Assembly (NCBI RefSeq): GCF_022843985.1 | Contig: NZ_JALHMP010000010.1 | Span: 62,001-126,000, forward strand | Source: Phreatobacter sp. | GTDB lineage: Bacteria > Pseudomonadota > Alphaproteobacteria > Rhizobiales > Phreatobacteraceae | DNA: 64,000 bases | Direction of reading: 5' to 3' | Shown: positions 37,413-57,545 of the stretch, piece after piece | Numbering within the stretch: position 1 is the first letter of the stretch | Layout of the letters: the number at the start of each line of letters is the position of its first letter | Translations under genes and position numbers: made by a program | Notes under the pieces: model-generated | Databases searched by the model: none | Told to the model about the DNA's origin: nothing | What the model saw: only the letters and a program-made list of their open reading frames with translations

Positions 37413-37437
37413 AACGTCGCCGGCCCGACCTTGTTCC
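37413..37437 (-). promoter_or_regulatory. EcfG-type promoter for the DUF1328 gene
   Basis: On the minus strand GGAAC (37437-37433), 16 bases, CGTT (37416-37413): exact consensus, 70 bases upstream of the DUF1328 ATG. Confidence 0.72.
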
Positions 37438-42869: not shown

Positions 42870-44687
42870 ATGATCCTCCGGAATGTCCCCGTGGATGCCA
42901 CGCCAGTCCACCCCGCCGAGATGCCGATCCGGTCGCGCTCCCGCGCCTTCTTCGGCATGGCGCGGGGATTTTGGACCGGATCCTCGGCGCGGCGGGCCTG
43001 GCTGCTGACGATCATCGTTCTCGCCTTCGCCTTCGCCCAGATTACCGCCCAGGTCGGCATCAACGGCTGGAACCGACTGTTCTTCGACGCCCTCGAGCGA
43101 AAGGATATCGGCGCCGTCGTCACGACGGTCAGCCTCCTGCCGCTTTTGCTCGGCATCGCCTCCTTCACCATGTCGGGACTGGTGGTCTCGCGCATGCTGC
43201 TGCAGGTGCGCTGGCGCGAATGGCTGACAAACAGGCTCGCCGGCTGGTGGATCGCCGACCAGCGCTACTATCGGCTCGGCTTTCTCGACACGGAACATTC
43301 GGCGCCGGAATTCCGCATCGCCGAGGACGTGCGCATCGCCACCGAGCCGCTGGTCGAATTCGCCATCGGCCTCATCTCGGCGGCGGTGACGGCGCTGACC
43401 TTCGCGGCGATCCTGTGGACCGTCGCCGGCTCCATCACCTTCGAGATCGCCGGACGCACCGTGTTCATTCCGGCCTATATGGCGATCGCCGCCGTGGTCT
43501 ATGCAGTCGTCGCCTCGCTCGCCGCCTATTTCGTCGGCCGCGCCCTTGTCGGCAAGGTCGCCGAGAAGAACGAGACTGAGGCGCTGTTTCGTGCCGAGAT
43601 GACGCGGCTGCGCGAGAATGCCGAGAGCATCGCCCTGATCAAGGGCGATTCCGACGAGCGGGCTTCCGTCCGGGAGACCTACAGGAATGTCGTGGTGGCC
43701 TGGATGGCGGTGGTGCGGCGTCAGGGCTTTCTCGCCCTCGTTCTGAACACCAACGGCGCCCTGTTTCCCCTCGTGCCGCTGCTGCTGGCCGCCCCGAAAT
43801 ATCTGTCCGGCGATCTGTCCCTCGGCGCCGTCATCCAGGTTGCCGCGGCCTTCAGCGCCGTCCAGGCCGCGCTGATCTGGTTCGTCGACAATTTCGTTCG
43901 TCTTTCGGAATGGTATGCCTCGGTGGTGCGCGTCGATGAATTAGCCCAGACCCTGGAGGAGGTCGACATCGGCGCCATCATGGAGGACGAGCAGCAGATC
44001 GAACTTGGTGAAAGCGACGACGACGCCATCCATATCGACAATCTGTCGCTGTCCCATCGCAACGGCCGCGTCGTTATCGACGACGCCTCCATCCGCATCG
44101 CGCAGGGCGAGAAGGTGCTGATCGCCGGCGAGAGCGGCACCGGCAAGAGCACGCTGATCCGCGCCCTCGCAGGCCTCTGGCCCTGGGGCTCGGGACGGAT
44201 CGCCTTTCCGAAGAACGTGCGCTACGCCTTCGTGCCGCAAAAGCCCTACCTGCCGCGCGGCACCTTGAAGGATGTTCTGCTCTATCCGGAATCGGACGCC
44301 CCGGTGACGGAGGACGTGATCCGCGCCGCCATGGAACGATGCGGCCTCGACTACATGGTCAAGCGCCTCAACGCGGATGACGACTGGGACCGCGTCCTCT
44401 CCGGCGGCGAACGCCAGCGGGTCGCCTTCTGCCGCCTGCTCATCCACCGGCCACCCATCATCATCATGGACGAGGCCACCGCCGCGCTGGACGAGGGCAG
44501 CCAGGACAGCCTGCTCTCGCTGTTCCAGAAGGAGCTCGCGGGATCGACGCTTATCAGTGTCGGCCATCGCCCGGGCCTTGAGGATTTCCACACGCGGAAG
44601 GTGACGCTCATCCGCCGTCCCGCCGGCGCGCATATGCAGGCGAGCCCGCTGCGCAAGTCACTGTGGAAGCTAATGGCCACGCCGTGA
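42870..44687 (+). CDS. ABC transporter, fused membrane and ATPase domains (YddA/BclA-like)
   Basis: 605 residues: an N-terminal SbmA/BacA-related membrane domain with about six helices (NGWNRLFFDALERKD is the family signature) and a C-terminal ATPase with Walker A GESGTGKST, signature LSGGERQR and Walker B IIIMDEATAALDE. It acts as a homodimer in the inner membrane. Relatives such as BclA of Bradyrhizobium take up peptides or act on very-long-chain lipid A assembly. GGGGGAGGGG precedes the ATG. A GGTT-variant EcfG-like promoter is upstream. Confidence 0.92.
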   Translation: MILRNVPVDATPVHPAEMPIRSRSRAFFGMARGFWTGSSARRAWLLTIIVLAFAFAQITAQVGINGWNRLFFDALERKDIGAVVTTVSLLPLLLGIASFTMSGLVVSRMLLQVRWREWLTNRLAGWWIADQRYYRLGFLDTEHSAPEFRIAEDVRIATEPLVEFAIGLISAAVTALTFAAILWTVAGSITFEIAGRTVFIPAYMAIAAVVYAVVASLAAYFVGRALVGKVAEKNETEALFRAEMTRLRENAESIALIKGDSDERASVRETYRNVVVAWMAVVRRQGFLALVLNTNGALFPLVPLLLAAPKYLSGDLSLGAVIQVAAAFSAVQAALIWFVDNFVRLSEWYASVVRVDELAQTLEEVDIGAIMEDEQQIELGESDDDAIHIDNLSLSHRNGRVVIDDASIRIAQGEKVLIAGESGTGKSTLIRALAGLWPWGSGRIAFPKNVRYAFVPQKPYLPRGTLKDVLLYPESDAPVTEDVIRAAMERCGLDYMVKRLNADDDWDRVLSGGERQRVAFCRLLIHRPPIIIMDEATAALDEGSQDSLLSLFQKELAGSTLISVGHRPGLEDFHTRKVTLIRRPAGAHMQASPLRKSLWKLMATP

Positions 44688-44752: not shown

Positions 44753-44777
44753 GGAACCGAAGCCGGGACCGGGCGTT
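44753..44777 (+). promoter_or_regulatory. EcfG-type promoter of the candidate small RNA
   Basis: GGAAC (44753-44757), 16 bases, CGTT (44774-44777): exact consensus. It is 139 bases before the next gene (44916) and only 48 bases before an intrinsic terminator, so its first product would be a short RNA. Confidence 0.75.
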
Positions 44778-44783
44778 GTTCCC

Positions 44784-44851
44784 CCGATCATCGCTTACCC
44801 TTCCCGCGATGTGGACCTCTCACTGAAGCCGCCTCTGGCGGCTTCTTTTTT
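44784..44851 (+). ncRNA. Candidate EcfG-dependent small RNA, about 68 nt
   Basis: Predicted from an exact EcfG-type promoter just upstream and a strong terminator at the end, with no start codon or frame between. Expected 5' end about 44784. A first stem-loop pairs CATCGC (44789-44794) with GCGATG (44806-44811) and exposes the C-rich loop TTACCCTTCCC, complementary to ribosome-site-like GGGAAGG. A short single strand (GGACCTCTCACT) follows, then the terminator hairpin. The layout recalls GsrN of Caulobacter, a stress sRNA with a C-rich loop, but homology cannot be shown by eye. Alternative: a leader attenuator for the transglutaminase at 44916. Confidence 0.55.
44825..44851 (+). terminator. 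Strong intrinsic terminator
   Basis: A 9-bp perfect stem (GAAGCCGCC and GGCGGCTTC, 3-base loop TCT) followed by six T. It can end both the ABC exporter transcript and the candidate small RNA. Confidence 0.9.
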
Positions 44852-44915
44852 GCCCCGTCGGCGACTGTCGGATAGGGTTCGGCTCGCGATCCGCGGCACA
44901 GGACGATCATTCGCC

Positions 44916-45797
44916 ATGGACCTTCAGGTTCGCCACGTCACCACCTACCGCTATGCCGGGCCCGTCCAGTTCGGGCCGCACAAGCTCATGCTCCGGCCCA
45001 GGGACAGCTTCGACATCCGGATCCTCGACACGCGGATCGAGATCTTTCCGCCGGCCGCCCTGCACTGGTCGCACGACGTCTATGGCAACACGGTCGCTGT
45101 TGCGACCTTCGCCCAGCCGGCGGACCGGCTTGAGATCACCAGCGGGCTCGTGCTGCGCCGCTATGCTGCCGCCTTCCCGCGCGACCGCAAGGCGGCCAGC
45201 GCCCTGTTCGCCCCCCATTATGCCGATGGCGAGCGCATCGTCCTGCAGCCCTTCATGACGCCTGCCGCCGGCGACGACGGCGGCGTGCTGGCCGCCTGGA
45301 TCGCCGAGGTCCTGGCCCAGGGCGCCGCCGACGAGGATCCGCTGGCCCGTCTGTCCCGTGCCATCCATGCCGGCTTCGGCTATGCCGTCCGGTTCGAGGA
45401 GGGCACGCAGGCGCCATCGCAAACCCTGTCGCTGCGATCGGGATCCTGCCGTGACCTCGCCTGGCTCTTCATCGAGGCAGTGCGGCGCCTCGGCTATGCC
45501 GCCCGCTTCGTCAGCGGCTACCTGCACACCAGCGCCAATGACGACCCATCCAACCGTGCGGCGGTCGGGCTGACTCATGCCTGGGCCGAGGTATTCGTTC
45601 CCGGCGACGGTTGGGTCGAGTTCGATCCGACCAATGCCCTGGTCGCCGATCCCCACCTGATCCGCGTCGCCGTGGCGCGGGTGCCCTGGGATGCCTCGCC
45701 GGTGGCCGGCAGTTTCGTCGGGCCGGTCGGCGCGCAGATCAGCCTGTCGGTCGGCGTCGACATCACCGCCACCCAGGCCTATTCGAACGTAGCGTGA
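44916..45797 (+). CDS. Transglutaminase-like cysteine protease family protein
   Basis: 293 residues: N-terminal beta domain (LQVRHVTTYRYAGPVQFGPH), then the transglutaminase core with a complete triad: Cys in SGSCRDLAWLF, His in LTHAWAEVF, Asp in EFDPTN. Unlike the one at 40.9-41.8 kb its His is normal. Intracellular; substrates unknown. The start at 44916 lies just after the terminator at 44825-44851, so either it has its own promoter in the 64-base gap or it depends on readthrough. It converges with the kinase-like gene. Confidence 0.9.
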   Translation: MDLQVRHVTTYRYAGPVQFGPHKLMLRPRDSFDIRILDTRIEIFPPAALHWSHDVYGNTVAVATFAQPADRLEITSGLVLRRYAAAFPRDRKAASALFAPHYADGERIVLQPFMTPAAGDDGGVLAAWIAEVLAQGAADEDPLARLSRAIHAGFGYAVRFEEGTQAPSQTLSLRSGSCRDLAWLFIEAVRRLGYAARFVSGYLHTSANDDPSNRAAVGLTHAWAEVFVPGDGWVEFDPTNALVADPHLIRVAVARVPWDASPVAGSFVGPVGAQISLSVGVDITATQAYSNVA

Positions 45798-45810: not shown

Positions 45811-47466
45811 TCAGACCGGCAGGTCCCAGCGCCCGGCGCTGGCCCCGTCTGCGGCCTCCATGCGGGTCGCCCCGATCTGGCGCAGCAGTCCGCGGGCGAT
45901 TTTCGTCTCCAGGGCACCGATGCGCCGGTCGTCGGTGACGACGGAGAGGATCAGATGGCCCTCGGACCCGCCACTGATCTCCACCACCACATGGTTCTCA
46001 TACCCCTCATGGATTGCATGGGAGGCGATTTCGACCACCAGCAGGCCAAGGGGGATGGCCCTGTCGACGACGAGCGCGACATCGTCGGGCGCGACAGTGG
46101 AGATCCACGGCTTGCCCGCCTGCATCAGGCCGTTCAGCATGGCCGAAACCTCGTCGAGGAAGGGCTTCAGTTCGACGGGGCGCATCTCGCCCAGCGCCAG
46201 GGCGTGACGATAGGCGCTGGACAGCACCTGCACCTTCGCCTCGATCGCGGCGAGGACCGGGCGATGCGCGGTGTCCTGCTGCCGGCGTGCCAGGCTGATA
46301 TAGCTCTGCACCACCTGCAGGCTGTTCTTCACCCGATGATGCAGCTCCCGCACCAGATGGCGGTTGGCGCCGATGGTGAGGTTCAGCCTCTCCACCCGCT
46401 CTGCCTGGTCGGTGACCAGGGCGTTGAAGGCTTCCGACACCCGCCGGATATCGTCCGGCATGGTCGGCTCAACCGGCGCGAGCCGTGGCTGCTGCGACGC
46501 CCGCGCCACTGCAGCCGCCTCAATTCCCCGGATCCAGCGGACGATGTTCGCGTCGATCGCCAGCGAATAGACGGCGAAGAGCACCATCAGCGTGACCAGG
46601 GGAGTCAGCAGCAGGGCGATGAACTGCATGAAGGCCGCCCGTTCGGCTTGCTGATCGAATCGGGCGAGAACATAGAGATCGGGTTCGGCGACGCGCTGCG
46701 TCGCGTAGGTTGCGGTCGCCCCGGACCGGCTAAGCGATTGCCATCGCTGGAGCTGCGGACTGGTGCGCCCGTCCAAAGGCAGCCAGTCGGTGTCGCCCTC
46801 GTCCGCCCCCCGGGCCACGATCACGTCCCTGGAATCGCGCACGATGCCGACGGTGATCCCGGGACTGACGGGCCCCAGGGCATAGGCGCGATCGATGATG
46901 TCGGCGCTCATCAACAGCAGCGACTCCATCTCCTGAGTCTGGGGTCCGGCGGCGCGTCGGGCATAGATGACCATGAACCGCCGCGCGCCGATCTGCGTCA
47001 CGCCATAGCTCGCATCGGCAAGTTCCGAACCGATCCACGTCGTGGAGCGGGTCTGGTCGCGGTAGGTTTCGATCACCCCGCGGATGTCCTCGGCCGAGAC
47101 GTGGTCACCCTCGCTGGCGCTGCAGCCTGGCCTGTCGCCAACCCGGATGGCAATGGCGCTGATGCCGATATTGTCGTCGACGATTTGCCGCGCGATGGCC
47201 GGACACGCATCGGCCGAGGCTTCGCCGGCGACGGCAGCGACGCTGGCTGTCGCCGTCAGGACGACACGGAGCGATTCCCGGTACCAGACGCGGGTCCGCA
47301 CTGCGAAGTTTCCGACCGTCTGCAACTGCGATGCCTCGAGCGACGACAGGACCGACCGATAGGTCGCCACCGCCGTCACCGCCGTGATCACGGCGATGGG
47401 GACAATGACGAGGACCATCAGGGCGAGAAGGCGGCCCCGGACGGTGCGGATTGCGGTCATGTTCAT
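45811..47466 (-). CDS. HisKA_2/HWE-type sensor protein with degraded ATP-binding domain (possible PhyR phosphatase)
   Basis: 551 residues. Two membrane helices (about 10-35 and 281-303) flank a periplasmic sensor; a HAMP-like linker leads to RELHHRVKNSLQVVQSY with the phospho-acceptor His near 377. The catalytic domain is degenerate: where the N-box should read ELVTNA it has EIASHAI, and the DxGxG element is replaced by TDDRRIG, with no clear G-box afterwards. It starts 5 bases after the ecfG stop, so it is in the nepR-ecfG operon. In Sphingomonas a similar neighbour, PhyP, is a negative regulator of PhyR; a comparable role is inferred here. Confidence 0.82.
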   Translation of the reverse strand: MNMTAIRTVRGRLLALMVLVIVPIAVITAVTAVATYRSVLSSLEASQLQTVGNFAVRTRVWYRESLRVVLTATASVAAVAGEASADACPAIARQIVDDNIGISAIAIRVGDRPGCSASEGDHVSAEDIRGVIETYRDQTRSTTWIGSELADASYGVTQIGARRFMVIYARRAAGPQTQEMESLLLMSADIIDRAYALGPVSPGITVGIVRDSRDVIVARGADEGDTDWLPLDGRTSPQLQRWQSLSRSGATATYATQRVAEPDLYVLARFDQQAERAAFMQFIALLLTPLVTLMVLFAVYSLAIDANIVRWIRGIEAAAVARASQQPRLAPVEPTMPDDIRRVSEAFNALVTDQAERVERLNLTIGANRHLVRELHHRVKNSLQVVQSYISLARRQQDTAHRPVLAAIEAKVQVLSSAYRHALALGEMRPVELKPFLDEVSAMLNGLMQAGKPWISTVAPDDVALVVDRAIPLGLLVVEIASHAIHEGYENHVVVEISGGSEGHLILSVVTDDRRIGALETKIARGLLRQIGATRMEAADGASAGRWDLPV

Positions 47467-47471
47467 CGCGA

Positions 47472-48032
47472 TCAACTACGCGCCATGTCCGCGGGAGATT
47501 GATGGGTGACGGCGACGGAGTTCCGGTCGGGTCCGATCTCGTCGACGCTGGTGATCCCGAGGAGATCGGCGAGTTTGGCCCGGGCGCGGTTGACGCGGCT
47601 CTTGATCGTACCGACTGCGACGCCACAGATCTCGGCCGCTTCCTCATAGGACAGGCCGCTGGCGCCCACCATGATGAGAACTTCGCGGTGCTCCTCCGAC
47701 AGTTTGGCAAGCGCGACGCGAAAATCGGCGAGGTCGAGCGCGCTCTCCTGTTCGCCGGAGACCGTCAGGCGCTGGGCATAGGTGCCGTCGCTGTCCTGAA
47801 CCTCACGGCCACGCTTGCGATAGAGCGAGTAATAGGTGTTGCGCAGAATGGTGAAGAGCCAGGCGCGCAGGCTGGTTCCGGGCTGGAACTTCTCCGCATT
47901 GCCCCAGGCCTTGAGCATGGTCTCCTGCACGAGATCATCGGCCTGCTGTACCGAACCGCAGAGCGACACGGCGAAAGCGCGCAGGTTGGACAACTCGGCG
48001 ATCAGGCCCTCGCGAAACTCGTCATTGGCCAT
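47472..48032 (-). CDS. ecfG: EcfG: general stress response ECF sigma factor
   Basis: 186 residues: sigma region 2 (LIAELSNLRAFAVSLCGSVQ, DDLVQETMLKAWGN, SLRAWLFTILRN) and region 4 (LSEEHREVLIMVGASGLSYE, EAAEICGVAVGTIKSRVNRA), the ECF15/EcfG pattern. It directs RNA polymerase to GGAAC/CGTT promoters. The ATG at 48032 lies inside the end of nepR (11-base overlap) with AAGGAG ahead, so anti-sigma and sigma factor are translationally coupled. Probably autoregulated by the promoter at 48267-48291. Confidence 0.97.
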   Translation of the reverse strand: MANDEFREGLIAELSNLRAFAVSLCGSVQQADDLVQETMLKAWGNAEKFQPGTSLRAWLFTILRNTYYSLYRKRGREVQDSDGTYAQRLTVSGEQESALDLADFRVALAKLSEEHREVLIMVGASGLSYEEAAEICGVAVGTIKSRVNRARAKLADLLGITSVDEIGPDRNSVAVTHQSPADMARS

Positions 48033-48219
48033 TCTGTCGCTCCTTCGCCTCCAACTCGGCGAGCAGTACGAGGAAGCGATCGGGAACCGGCGCCTTGATG
48101 AGGTCGTCGTAATGGGCCTTGAGCGCATTGCCGATCGTCTCCTGGATGCGCGGGTCGAGAACGACATCCGCCGAGTCCTTGTCCTCGCTCTTGTCGTCGT
48201 GGCCCGGCATCTCACCCAT
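48022..48219 (-). CDS. nepR: NepR: anti-sigma factor of EcfG
   Basis: 65 residues. The conserved NepR core is IQETIGNALKAHYDDLIKAP and VPDRFLVLLAELE, flanked by variable acidic ends. NepR holds EcfG inactive until phosphorylated PhyR, which mimics a sigma factor, binds it. GGGAGAG precedes the ATG, its 3' end overlaps ecfG, and an exact EcfG-type promoter lies 48 bases upstream of the start. Confidence 0.95.
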   Translation of the reverse strand: MGEMPGHDDKSEDKDSADVVLDPRIQETIGNALKAHYDDLIKAPVPDRFLVLLAELEAKERQNGQ

Positions 48220-48266: not shown

Positions 48267-48291
48267 AACGTCCGCAAACGGCAAGGGTTCC
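48267..48291 (-). promoter_or_regulatory. EcfG-type promoter of nepR-ecfG-kinase operon (autoregulation)
   Basis: Minus strand GGAAC (48291-48287), 16 bases, CGTT (48270-48267): exact consensus, 48 bases upstream of nepR. Autoregulation of nepR-ecfG by EcfG is established in several alphaproteobacteria. Confidence 0.85.
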
Positions 48292-48369: not shown

Positions 48370-49167
48370 ATGACAATCGCTGCGGAAATTGCACCGCATC
48401 TTCCTTATCTGCGCCGCTTCGCGCGGGCCCTGAACGGCACGCAGGCTGGCGGTGATTCCTACGTCGTCGCCACCCTTGAGACCCTCGTCGCCGACCCCTC
48501 GACCTTTCCCCGCGACATGCCCGCGCGCATCGCGCTCTATCGCACCTTCCTCAAGCTGTGGTCATCGATGCCGGTGAACATGGCCGCGCCCCAGGGCGGC
48601 GGGGCGCGCCAGGGCGCGGTCGAGCGCAACCTCGAAGCACTGACGCCGCGGCCGCGCCAGGCCTTCCTGCTGCGGACCGTCGAAGGTTTCGCCATCCAGG
48701 ACGTGGCGGCGGTTCTCGACATCGATACGGAGGCGGCGGCAGCGCTGGTGGAACAGGCCGGCCGCGAGATCGCCGAGCAGGTCGCCACAGACGTCCTCAT
48801 CATCGAGGACGAGCCGATCATCGCCCTCGACATCGAGACACTGGTCCAGGAACTCGGCCACGCGGTGACGGGCATTGCCCGCACCCACAAGGAAGCCGTG
48901 GCGCTGGTCCGGCACAAGCGCCCGGGTCTCGTCCTCGCCGATATCCAGCTCGCGGACGGCTCGTCCGGCCTGGAGGCTGTCGCCGAGATCCTCGAAACCA
49001 TCGACCTGCCGGTCATCTTCATCACCGCCTATCCGGAACGGCTGCTGACCGGAGACCGGCCGGAGCCGGCCTTCCTGATCACCAAACCCTTCCAGCCCGA
49101 GGCGGTGAAGGCGGCGATCAGCCAGGCCCTGTTTTTCGACCGCCGTTCGGAGCGCAAGGTCGCCTGA
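48370..49167 (+). CDS. phyR: PhyR: general stress response regulator (anti-anti-sigma)
   Basis: 265 residues: an N-terminal sigma-like domain (about 1-135, regions 2 and 4: LPYLRRFARALNGTQ, TPRPRQAFLLRTVEGFAIQDVAAVL) fused to a receiver domain (LIIEDEPIIALDIE, phospho-acceptor Asp in LVLADIQLADGSSG, Thr in FITAYP, Lys in ITKPFQP). Phosphorylation opens the protein so the sigma-like part sequesters NepR. It diverges from nepR-ecfG. ACAGGAG precedes the ATG. No exact EcfG promoter faces it; TATATT at 48349-48354 may be a housekeeping -10. Confidence 0.97.
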   Translation: MTIAAEIAPHLPYLRRFARALNGTQAGGDSYVVATLETLVADPSTFPRDMPARIALYRTFLKLWSSMPVNMAAPQGGGARQGAVERNLEALTPRPRQAFLLRTVEGFAIQDVAAVLDIDTEAAAALVEQAGREIAEQVATDVLIIEDEPIIALDIETLVQELGHAVTGIARTHKEAVALVRHKRPGLVLADIQLADGSSGLEAVAEILETIDLPVIFITAYPERLLTGDRPEPAFLITKPFQPEAVKAAISQALFFDRRSERKVA

Positions 49168-57469: not shown

Positions 57470-57545
57470 GCCGCCTTAGCTCAGCTGGTAGAGCACCTCA
57501 TTCGTAATGAGGGGGTCGTAGGTTCGAATCCTATAGGCGGCACCA
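57470..57545 (+). tRNA. tRNA-Thr (anticodon CGT)
   Basis: A 76-base cloverleaf with encoded CCA: acceptor GCCGCCT/AGGCGGC, D arm GCTCAGCTGGTAGAGC, anticodon arm CCTCA-TTCGTAA-TGAGG with anticodon CGT (reads ACG), T arm with GGTTCGAATCC, discriminator A at 57542 and CCA at 57543-57545. Confidence 0.97.

Follow-up and report, generated by a model that had tools for sequence, protein, structure and literature searches.

Upstream of a transglutaminase-like gene in Phreatobacter sp., and close to the genes of the general stress response, an EcfG-type promoter is followed by an intrinsic terminator with only a short segment in between, which raises the question of whether this segment is a small RNA gene and, if so, what its RNA might do. 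The initial annotation of the window (the whole stretch of DNA analyzed, 64,000 nucleotides of contig NZ_JALHMP010000010.1, to which positions refer unless stated otherwise) had proposed an EcfG-dependent small RNA with a C-rich loop at this site, either of the GsrN type or new. From comparing this locus (Table 1) with its relatives at the level of sequence, we conclude that the candidate is a genuine small RNA gene, conserved in relatives and linked to the general stress response.

Table 1. Positions in the window of the small RNA gene, its elements, and the genes that follow it.
Feature	Position	Strand	Details and basis
EcfG-type promoter	44753..44777	+	exact match to GGAAC-N16-CGTT; same boxes and spacing in 25 loci
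Candidate small RNA gene	44778..44851	+	at most 74 nt, 3′ of the −10 box
First hairpin	44789..44811	+	stem 44789-44794 with 44806-44811; loop 44795-44805 UUACCCUUCCC
Single-stranded linker GACCUCU	44814..44820	+	unpaired probability 0.84 in the window RNA
Intrinsic terminator	44825..44851	+	9-bp stem-loop 44825-44845 and T tract 44846-44851; fold, sequence
Transglutaminase-like gene	44916..45797	+	Pfam PF08379, PF01841; 64 nt 3′ of the terminator
HisKA_2/HWE-type histidine kinase	45811..47475	-	Pfam, synteny
EcfG-type sigma factor	47472..48032	-	Sigma70_r2, r4_2; synteny
NepR anti-sigma factor	48022..48219	-	PF18557
PhyR response regulator	48370..49167	+	PF22029, PF22233, PF00072

Since the genome contains 45 exact matches to GGAAC-N16-CGTT, compared to 24 for a reversed control pattern, a lone exact match is weak evidence for a promoter. 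For three of the 45 sites, a terminator-like site lies within 100 nt, and that at 44753 is the strongest of the three. When 60 PhyR-centred loci (984,738 bases) were scanned, the same pattern was found 189 times, compared to 2 to 18 times for each of 29 permuted −35 boxes. We accept the promoter as real because of its conservation, with a spacing of 16 at all 25 loci that carry the RNA and an exact GGAAC −35 box at 24 of them, and the exact EcfG-type promoter first read at this site is thereby upheld. The exception, L009, has neither a −35 box nor a C-rich loop and looks decayed. RNA segments were located first by their terminators and the promoter pattern was applied afterwards; with spacings of 15 to 18 permitted, 16 was found in 23/23 loci, and the two added loci (L080 and L081) also have a spacing of 16, with 16 or 17 permitted. 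In a promoter-anchored alignment, identity was 48% in the spacer and 40% in the 38 upstream bases, compared to 98% in the −35 box and 90% in the −10 box, values that are partly built in since the anchor demanded GG[AG][AG]C together with any of four forms of the −10 box, while the exact GGAAC in 24 of 25 loci is not built in.

A transglutaminase search yielded 25 relatives, or 26 loci with the window, and the RNA lies upstream of the gene in 23 of these 26 (absent in L007, L021, and L025). Two further Phreatobacter genomes (L080 and L081) bring the RNA set to 25, and the arrangement of promoter, RNA, and terminator thus occurs at 25 distinct loci, 8 of them Phreatobacter-like and 17 Bosea-like, the latter comprising RNAs from Bosea or from records that group with Bosea. 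Counts are given as distinct RNAs because some of the 12 Phreatobacter genomes duplicate assemblies among the loci (for example, L047 is the same as L002). The initial annotation had offered a lack of conserved promoter, C-rich loop, and terminator in relatives as grounds for its own rejection; with these elements conserved in relatives, that objection fails.

We found that the RNA accompanies the stress genes. The order RNA position, transglutaminase, kinase, EcfG, NepR, and PhyR recurs at 25 distinct loci (the window, 22 relatives, L080, and L081; the sequence of L003 ends before PhyR), and the RNA is present at 24 of these 25, L021 being the one without it, compared to 1 of 10 transglutaminase loci outside that order, namely L018. 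These ten are L007, L018, L025, L211, L212, L213, L108, L116, L118, and L124; L210, which is the same as L007, and L083, which holds the L212 gene, were counted once with them, and L082 was left out as a weak partial transglutaminase match beside stress genes.

In the window, the RNA lies 2.6 kb from ecfG and 3.5 kb from phyR. The sigma factor is named EcfG because its gene adjoins NepR and PhyR; positions 47472-48023 were used in searches, and the gene probably begins with the ATG at about 48032. An exact EcfG-type promoter, beginning at 48291 on the minus strand, lies upstream of NepR, and the transglutaminase is 91% identical to its nearest named relatives, which are from Phreatobacter. The gene upstream of the RNA varies, being an ABC exporter at most loci and something else in L005; in the window, an SbmA/BacA-like ABC exporter (42870-44687; PF06472, PF05992) adjoins the RNA. 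By eye, many loci of the Bosea set (L008-L024, L026) have, ahead of the RNA, a small reading frame whose start recurrently resembles FFGFMG, and L021 has an FFGFMG-like small frame with an EcfG-type promoter of its own.

The predicted RNA probably starts a few bases inside the segment given in Table 1. Its terminator is as first described, and the gap between promoter and terminator is 47 bases rather than the 48 originally counted. CCCCC at 44781-44785 lies in the unpaired 5′ tail, and ACCCUUCCC in the loop of the first hairpin has an unpaired probability of 1.00. The 79 bases 3′ of the −10 box fold at −26.1 kcal/mol (z −4.92; 0 of 200 shuffles equally good), with much of this strength coming from the terminator. 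RNA length is 57-61 nt in Bosea and 72-83 nt in Phreatobacter, and among the best folds of 23 RNAs, the terminator hairpin or T tract is paired otherwise only in L010, where an overlapping hairpin takes the place of the terminator, and in L026, where the T tract pairs with the 5′ end.

Compensatory changes in the 44789-44811 stem had been put forward as a check on the fold, and we found them clearly only in the Bosea version of the stem and slightly in that of Phreatobacter. Among the 17 RNAs of the Bosea set, 4 of 5 pairs in the first stem have changed on both sides, a value reached by 26 of 500 shuffles, and over the whole structure 8 cells have changed on both sides, compared to a shuffle mean of 2.6 (0/500), with 93.2% of cells paired. 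A slide control with partners shifted by +2 also gave 5 pairs and 8 cells doubly changed, but only 47.1% of its cells pair. The CCUC core of the loop is constant in this set while the stem covaries. On the other hand, the first stem of 7 Phreatobacter RNAs is nearly invariant, with one double change at one pair in one sequence, a level that 133 of 500 shuffles also reached.

The loop contains [CT]CCTCG in 15 of the 17 Bosea-set RNAs (absent as such in L009 and L023) and is unpaired with a probability of about 0.8 or above in most, with 0.38 in L010 and 0.60 in L012. The Phreatobacter loop is unpaired at 0.71-1.00 in 8 RNAs and is C-rich in 7 of them, being weaker in L004 (UUCACUUUCC). The best conserved unpaired stretch in Phreatobacter is the linker GACCUCU, which is identical in 8/8 RNAs (unpaired probability 0.63-0.84), and not the loop. 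The description of a C-rich loop exposed on a stem therefore fits the window and most relatives, but the invariant element in Phreatobacter is the linker. The pairing site of the RNA could be the loop or, as a second candidate, this linker.

Two models were used to search for further copies, R2 built from 7 Phreatobacter RNAs and R1 from the 17 RNAs of the Bosea set. R2 scores the window RNA, a member of its training set, at 94 bits and gives at least 69.6 bits in 8 of 12 Phreatobacter genomes, among which only G002 is new to the model. A strong R2 match was missing in the remaining 4 of these 12 genomes, with 31 bits in G006, 26.1 bits in G001, and none at E ≤ 0.05 in G011 and in G004, whose assembly consists of 480 contigs and reaches 89% completeness. 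The 31-bit match in G006 (L065; contig C75 near 551376) has its own CUCCUCCCCC loop hairpin and a terminator, and no EcfG-type box was found in the 200 bases upstream of it. R1 found places in 14 of 347 genomes of the order at E ≤ 1e-5, in a search that scored 15 candidates per genome and is no proof of absence. We rejected these places, since six in Phreatobacter, among them L031 with its RF02356 match, are BjrC1505-like sequence, one in Phreatobacter is a terminator, and the other seven are terminators; an EcfG-type box was absent from the 200 bases upstream of all 14. Across 81 PhyR loci, R2 was strong only in two from Phreatobacter (89.6 and 89.7 bits, with the next at 21.8), and R1 scored these two at 25.1 and 28.3 bits, no better than L089 (25.2) and L093 (24.4). 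In the window RNA, R1 matches 44805-44851, mostly the half with the terminator, at 29.6 bits. The R1 scores leave synteny, promoter, and terminator, and not the first hairpin, as the grounds for linking the RNAs of Phreatobacter with those of Bosea.

GsrN of Caulobacter crescentus, as described in PMC5869019, is a sigT (EcfG)-dependent noncoding RNA of about 106 nt with a C-rich loop in its 5′ part and an intrinsic terminator; it is cleaved near nucleotide 53, has a stable 5′ isoform stabilized by Hfq, and acts on katG. The same paper states that GsrN relatives in Caulobacteraceae typically adjoin ecfG-nepR-phyR and reports BLASTn matches only in Caulobacteraceae, and it already predicts GsrN-like RNAs near stress loci with an EcfG site, proximity to sigT/ecfG-nepR-phyR, and intergenic transcription as parameters. 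Two of these three parameters apply to the window RNA, namely the near-consensus EcfG site, which is exact in the window, and the position, and it also has the exposed C-rich loop near the 5′ end that is a shared feature of GsrN-like RNAs in that source. The EcfG-type promoter, the predicted terminated short RNA, the C-rich loop, and the place by ecfG-nepR-phyR are all shared with the GsrN precedent invoked in the initial annotation, a likeness drawn from descriptions. By the same description, the window RNA differs from GsrN in having at most 74 nt and one hairpin before the terminator, and its loop is without the six tandem C of the GsrN loop; runs of C lie in the 5′ tail instead, with five C in the window and six in L003.

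ReC64 of Rhizobium etli, according to PMC3892343, is an EcfG1-dependent noncoding RNA of length 88 in the ecfG1-phyR region, with its start mapped by 5′ RACE and its promoter tested in a fusion. Compared by description, it shares promoter type and region with the window RNA but sits downstream of phyR-tcrY, whereas the window RNA lies before the transglutaminase. BjrC1505 (RF02356) resembles the window RNA in its CCUCCC motif followed by a GGCCGCC...GGCGGCC terminator and cross-matches R1, but it is encoded by a different gene in another part of the same genome (L031 1421-1559, contig C27 near 38470; 93.2 bits), and no EcfG-type box was found in the 120 bases before it. The suhB/mmgR family (RF00519) was rejected, with 16.2 bits over 44790-44858, far under the gathering score of 41, and no matches at E ≤ 0.001 in the window's own genome. 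At the gathering score, Rfam 15 gives only a tRNA at 57470 in the window and no family for the RNA, and the RNAs of L006, L014, and L016 have no Rfam match up to E 1. No paper title among the matches listed, a search with subscription journals mostly outside its scope, concerned such an RNA in Bosea or Phreatobacter. The RNA is, as far as we searched, new for these two genera, and it is a new, short, lineage-specific member of a GsrN-like class that is defined by position. RNAs of this kind, driven by EcfG, rich in C, and encoded close to the stress locus, have been published before (PMC5869019, PMC3892343).

We consider it likely that the gene encodes a trans-acting small RNA of the general stress response, since promoter, spacing, short RNA, and terminator recur at 25 loci, the Bosea stem compensates while its CCUC core stays, the RNA accompanies the stress cluster and has no conserved frame, and ReC64 and the GsrN-like RNAs have the same promoter type and place. 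Predicted pairing with the 5′ regions of five neighbor genes did not exceed that with shuffled regions (mean z: transglutaminase −0.30, kinase −0.58, EcfG +0.26, NepR −0.70, PhyR −0.11). The RNA may instead be a 5′ leader or attenuator of the transglutaminase gene, with the short RNA a mere by-product of termination, which we regard as rather unlikely. This reading keeps weight because the terminator ends only 15 nt (L022) and 19 nt (L012) before the start codon, leaving little room for a separate promoter, and expression of the transglutaminase at these two loci probably relies on read-through or on some promoter lying further upstream. The RNA lies on the same strand as the transglutaminase and directly upstream of it in 25/25 loci (gap 15-74 nt), and transglutaminase genes away from kinase-EcfG, in L007, L211, L212, and L213, have neither box nor RNA; L021, however, keeps the gene in the stress order without the RNA and with no box nearer than −388, where the box precedes a small reading frame. 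L108, a locus from another family, has an EcfG-type box 95 nt upstream of its transglutaminase (4275-3400, opposite strand, near ecfG-nepR-phyR) and no RNA, which shows that EcfG can target this gene where the RNA is missing. This box and the alternative folds at the terminator in L010 and L026 weaken the trans-acting reading and strengthen that of a leader, but those folds are the only 2 seen among the best folds of 23 RNAs, and attenuation leaves a C-rich loop on a covarying stem unexplained. Leader and trans-acting roles can coexist.

We think it very improbable that the EcfG promoter merely drives the transglutaminase, with hairpins that are incidental or that help to stabilize the mRNA. 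Conservation is highest in the promoter and the terminator, and L108 has its box without a terminator before the transglutaminase (no T run was found between the two), but a G+C-rich terminator with a T tract is kept between promoter and gene at 25 loci. That the transcript codes for a small protein is scarcely credible. The RNA had been described as having no start codon context, which is incorrect, since there is an ATG in the window RNA, opening a frame of 5 codons (MWTSH), as well as a GTG at 44811, and an ATG sits at a similar place in 8/8 Phreatobacter RNAs, mostly within the stem. However, frames from this ATG vary from 1 codon (L006, ATG-stop) to at least 80 codons (L080 and L081), no shared start codon was found among the Bosea RNAs, and no conserved reading frame was found across the RNA set; we therefore rejected a coding role.

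The wider survey covered 81 PhyR loci from the order and class, with the pattern GGAAC-N16-[CGT][GA]TT and 29 permuted boxes as decoys; terminators were called by a fold-based scan, and an RNA counted as C-rich if at least 6 of 9 bases in an unpaired stretch were C. Real boxes gave 332 sites, 27 then followed by a strong terminator and 10 of these C-rich, compared to 1187 sites, 95 with a terminator, and 7 C-rich for the 29 permuted boxes together. A terminator thus follows real boxes (8.1%) no more often than decoys (8.0%), and only the C-rich ones are commoner after real boxes (Fisher p 0.001 for 10/332 versus 7/1187 and 0.0004 for 10/27 versus 7/95; 0.007 and 0.003 without the two Phreatobacter loci), with p values that are optimistic because an initial inspection of such loci preceded the choice of thresholds. 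An earlier strict scan found terminators after 5 of 189 real and 3 of 219 decoy boxes, which is no clear difference. Eight candidate EcfG-driven C-rich RNAs (L089 8893+, L096 10165-, L122 10184-, L127 9034-, L139 7950-, L141 6300-, L143 8820+, and L147 10040+) come from eight families; R2 scores none of them above 22 bits, and R1 gives 25.2 for L089, in the terminator half. It is possible, though we hold it with more doubt than belief, that the alphaproteobacterial stress switch repeatedly carries an EcfG-driven C-rich RNA next to ecfG-nepR-phyR, unalignable between lineages and either kept or re-invented many times, and that the window RNA is a compact example and the eight candidates are others of this design; we lowered our estimate since real boxes are not followed by terminators more often than decoy boxes are.

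Small hydrophobic reading frames follow EcfG boxes in L117, L124, and L132, and a frame like these lies about 70 nt after an exact EcfG-type promoter at 37437 on the minus strand of the window.

Under stress, EcfG is freed from NepR via PhyR. On the trans-acting reading that we prefer, freed EcfG would transcribe the RNA from 44753-44777, as the conserved promoter suggests, and transcription would halt at the terminator to yield an RNA of about 65-74 nt. This RNA would expose C-rich single strands, in the hairpin loop and, in Phreatobacter, also in the linker GACCUCU. By analogy with GsrN, these strands, which may resemble the 3′ end of 16S rRNA, might pair with G-rich leader or ribosome-binding sequences of mRNAs, and such pairing would alter the translation or stability of the target mRNA. 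Some polymerases probably read on into the transglutaminase, and the RNA may double as the leader of this gene. Altogether, the analogy suggests that the RNA probably tunes other genes by pairing its C-rich strands with their messages, like GsrN in Caulobacter. If this is true, RNA control of the alphaproteobacterial general stress response would reach two more genera, in the form of an RNA that is shorter than both GsrN and ReC64, and the conserved locus would be a place to ask why the stress switch keeps a C-rich RNA nearby and whether such RNAs are homologous or convergent.
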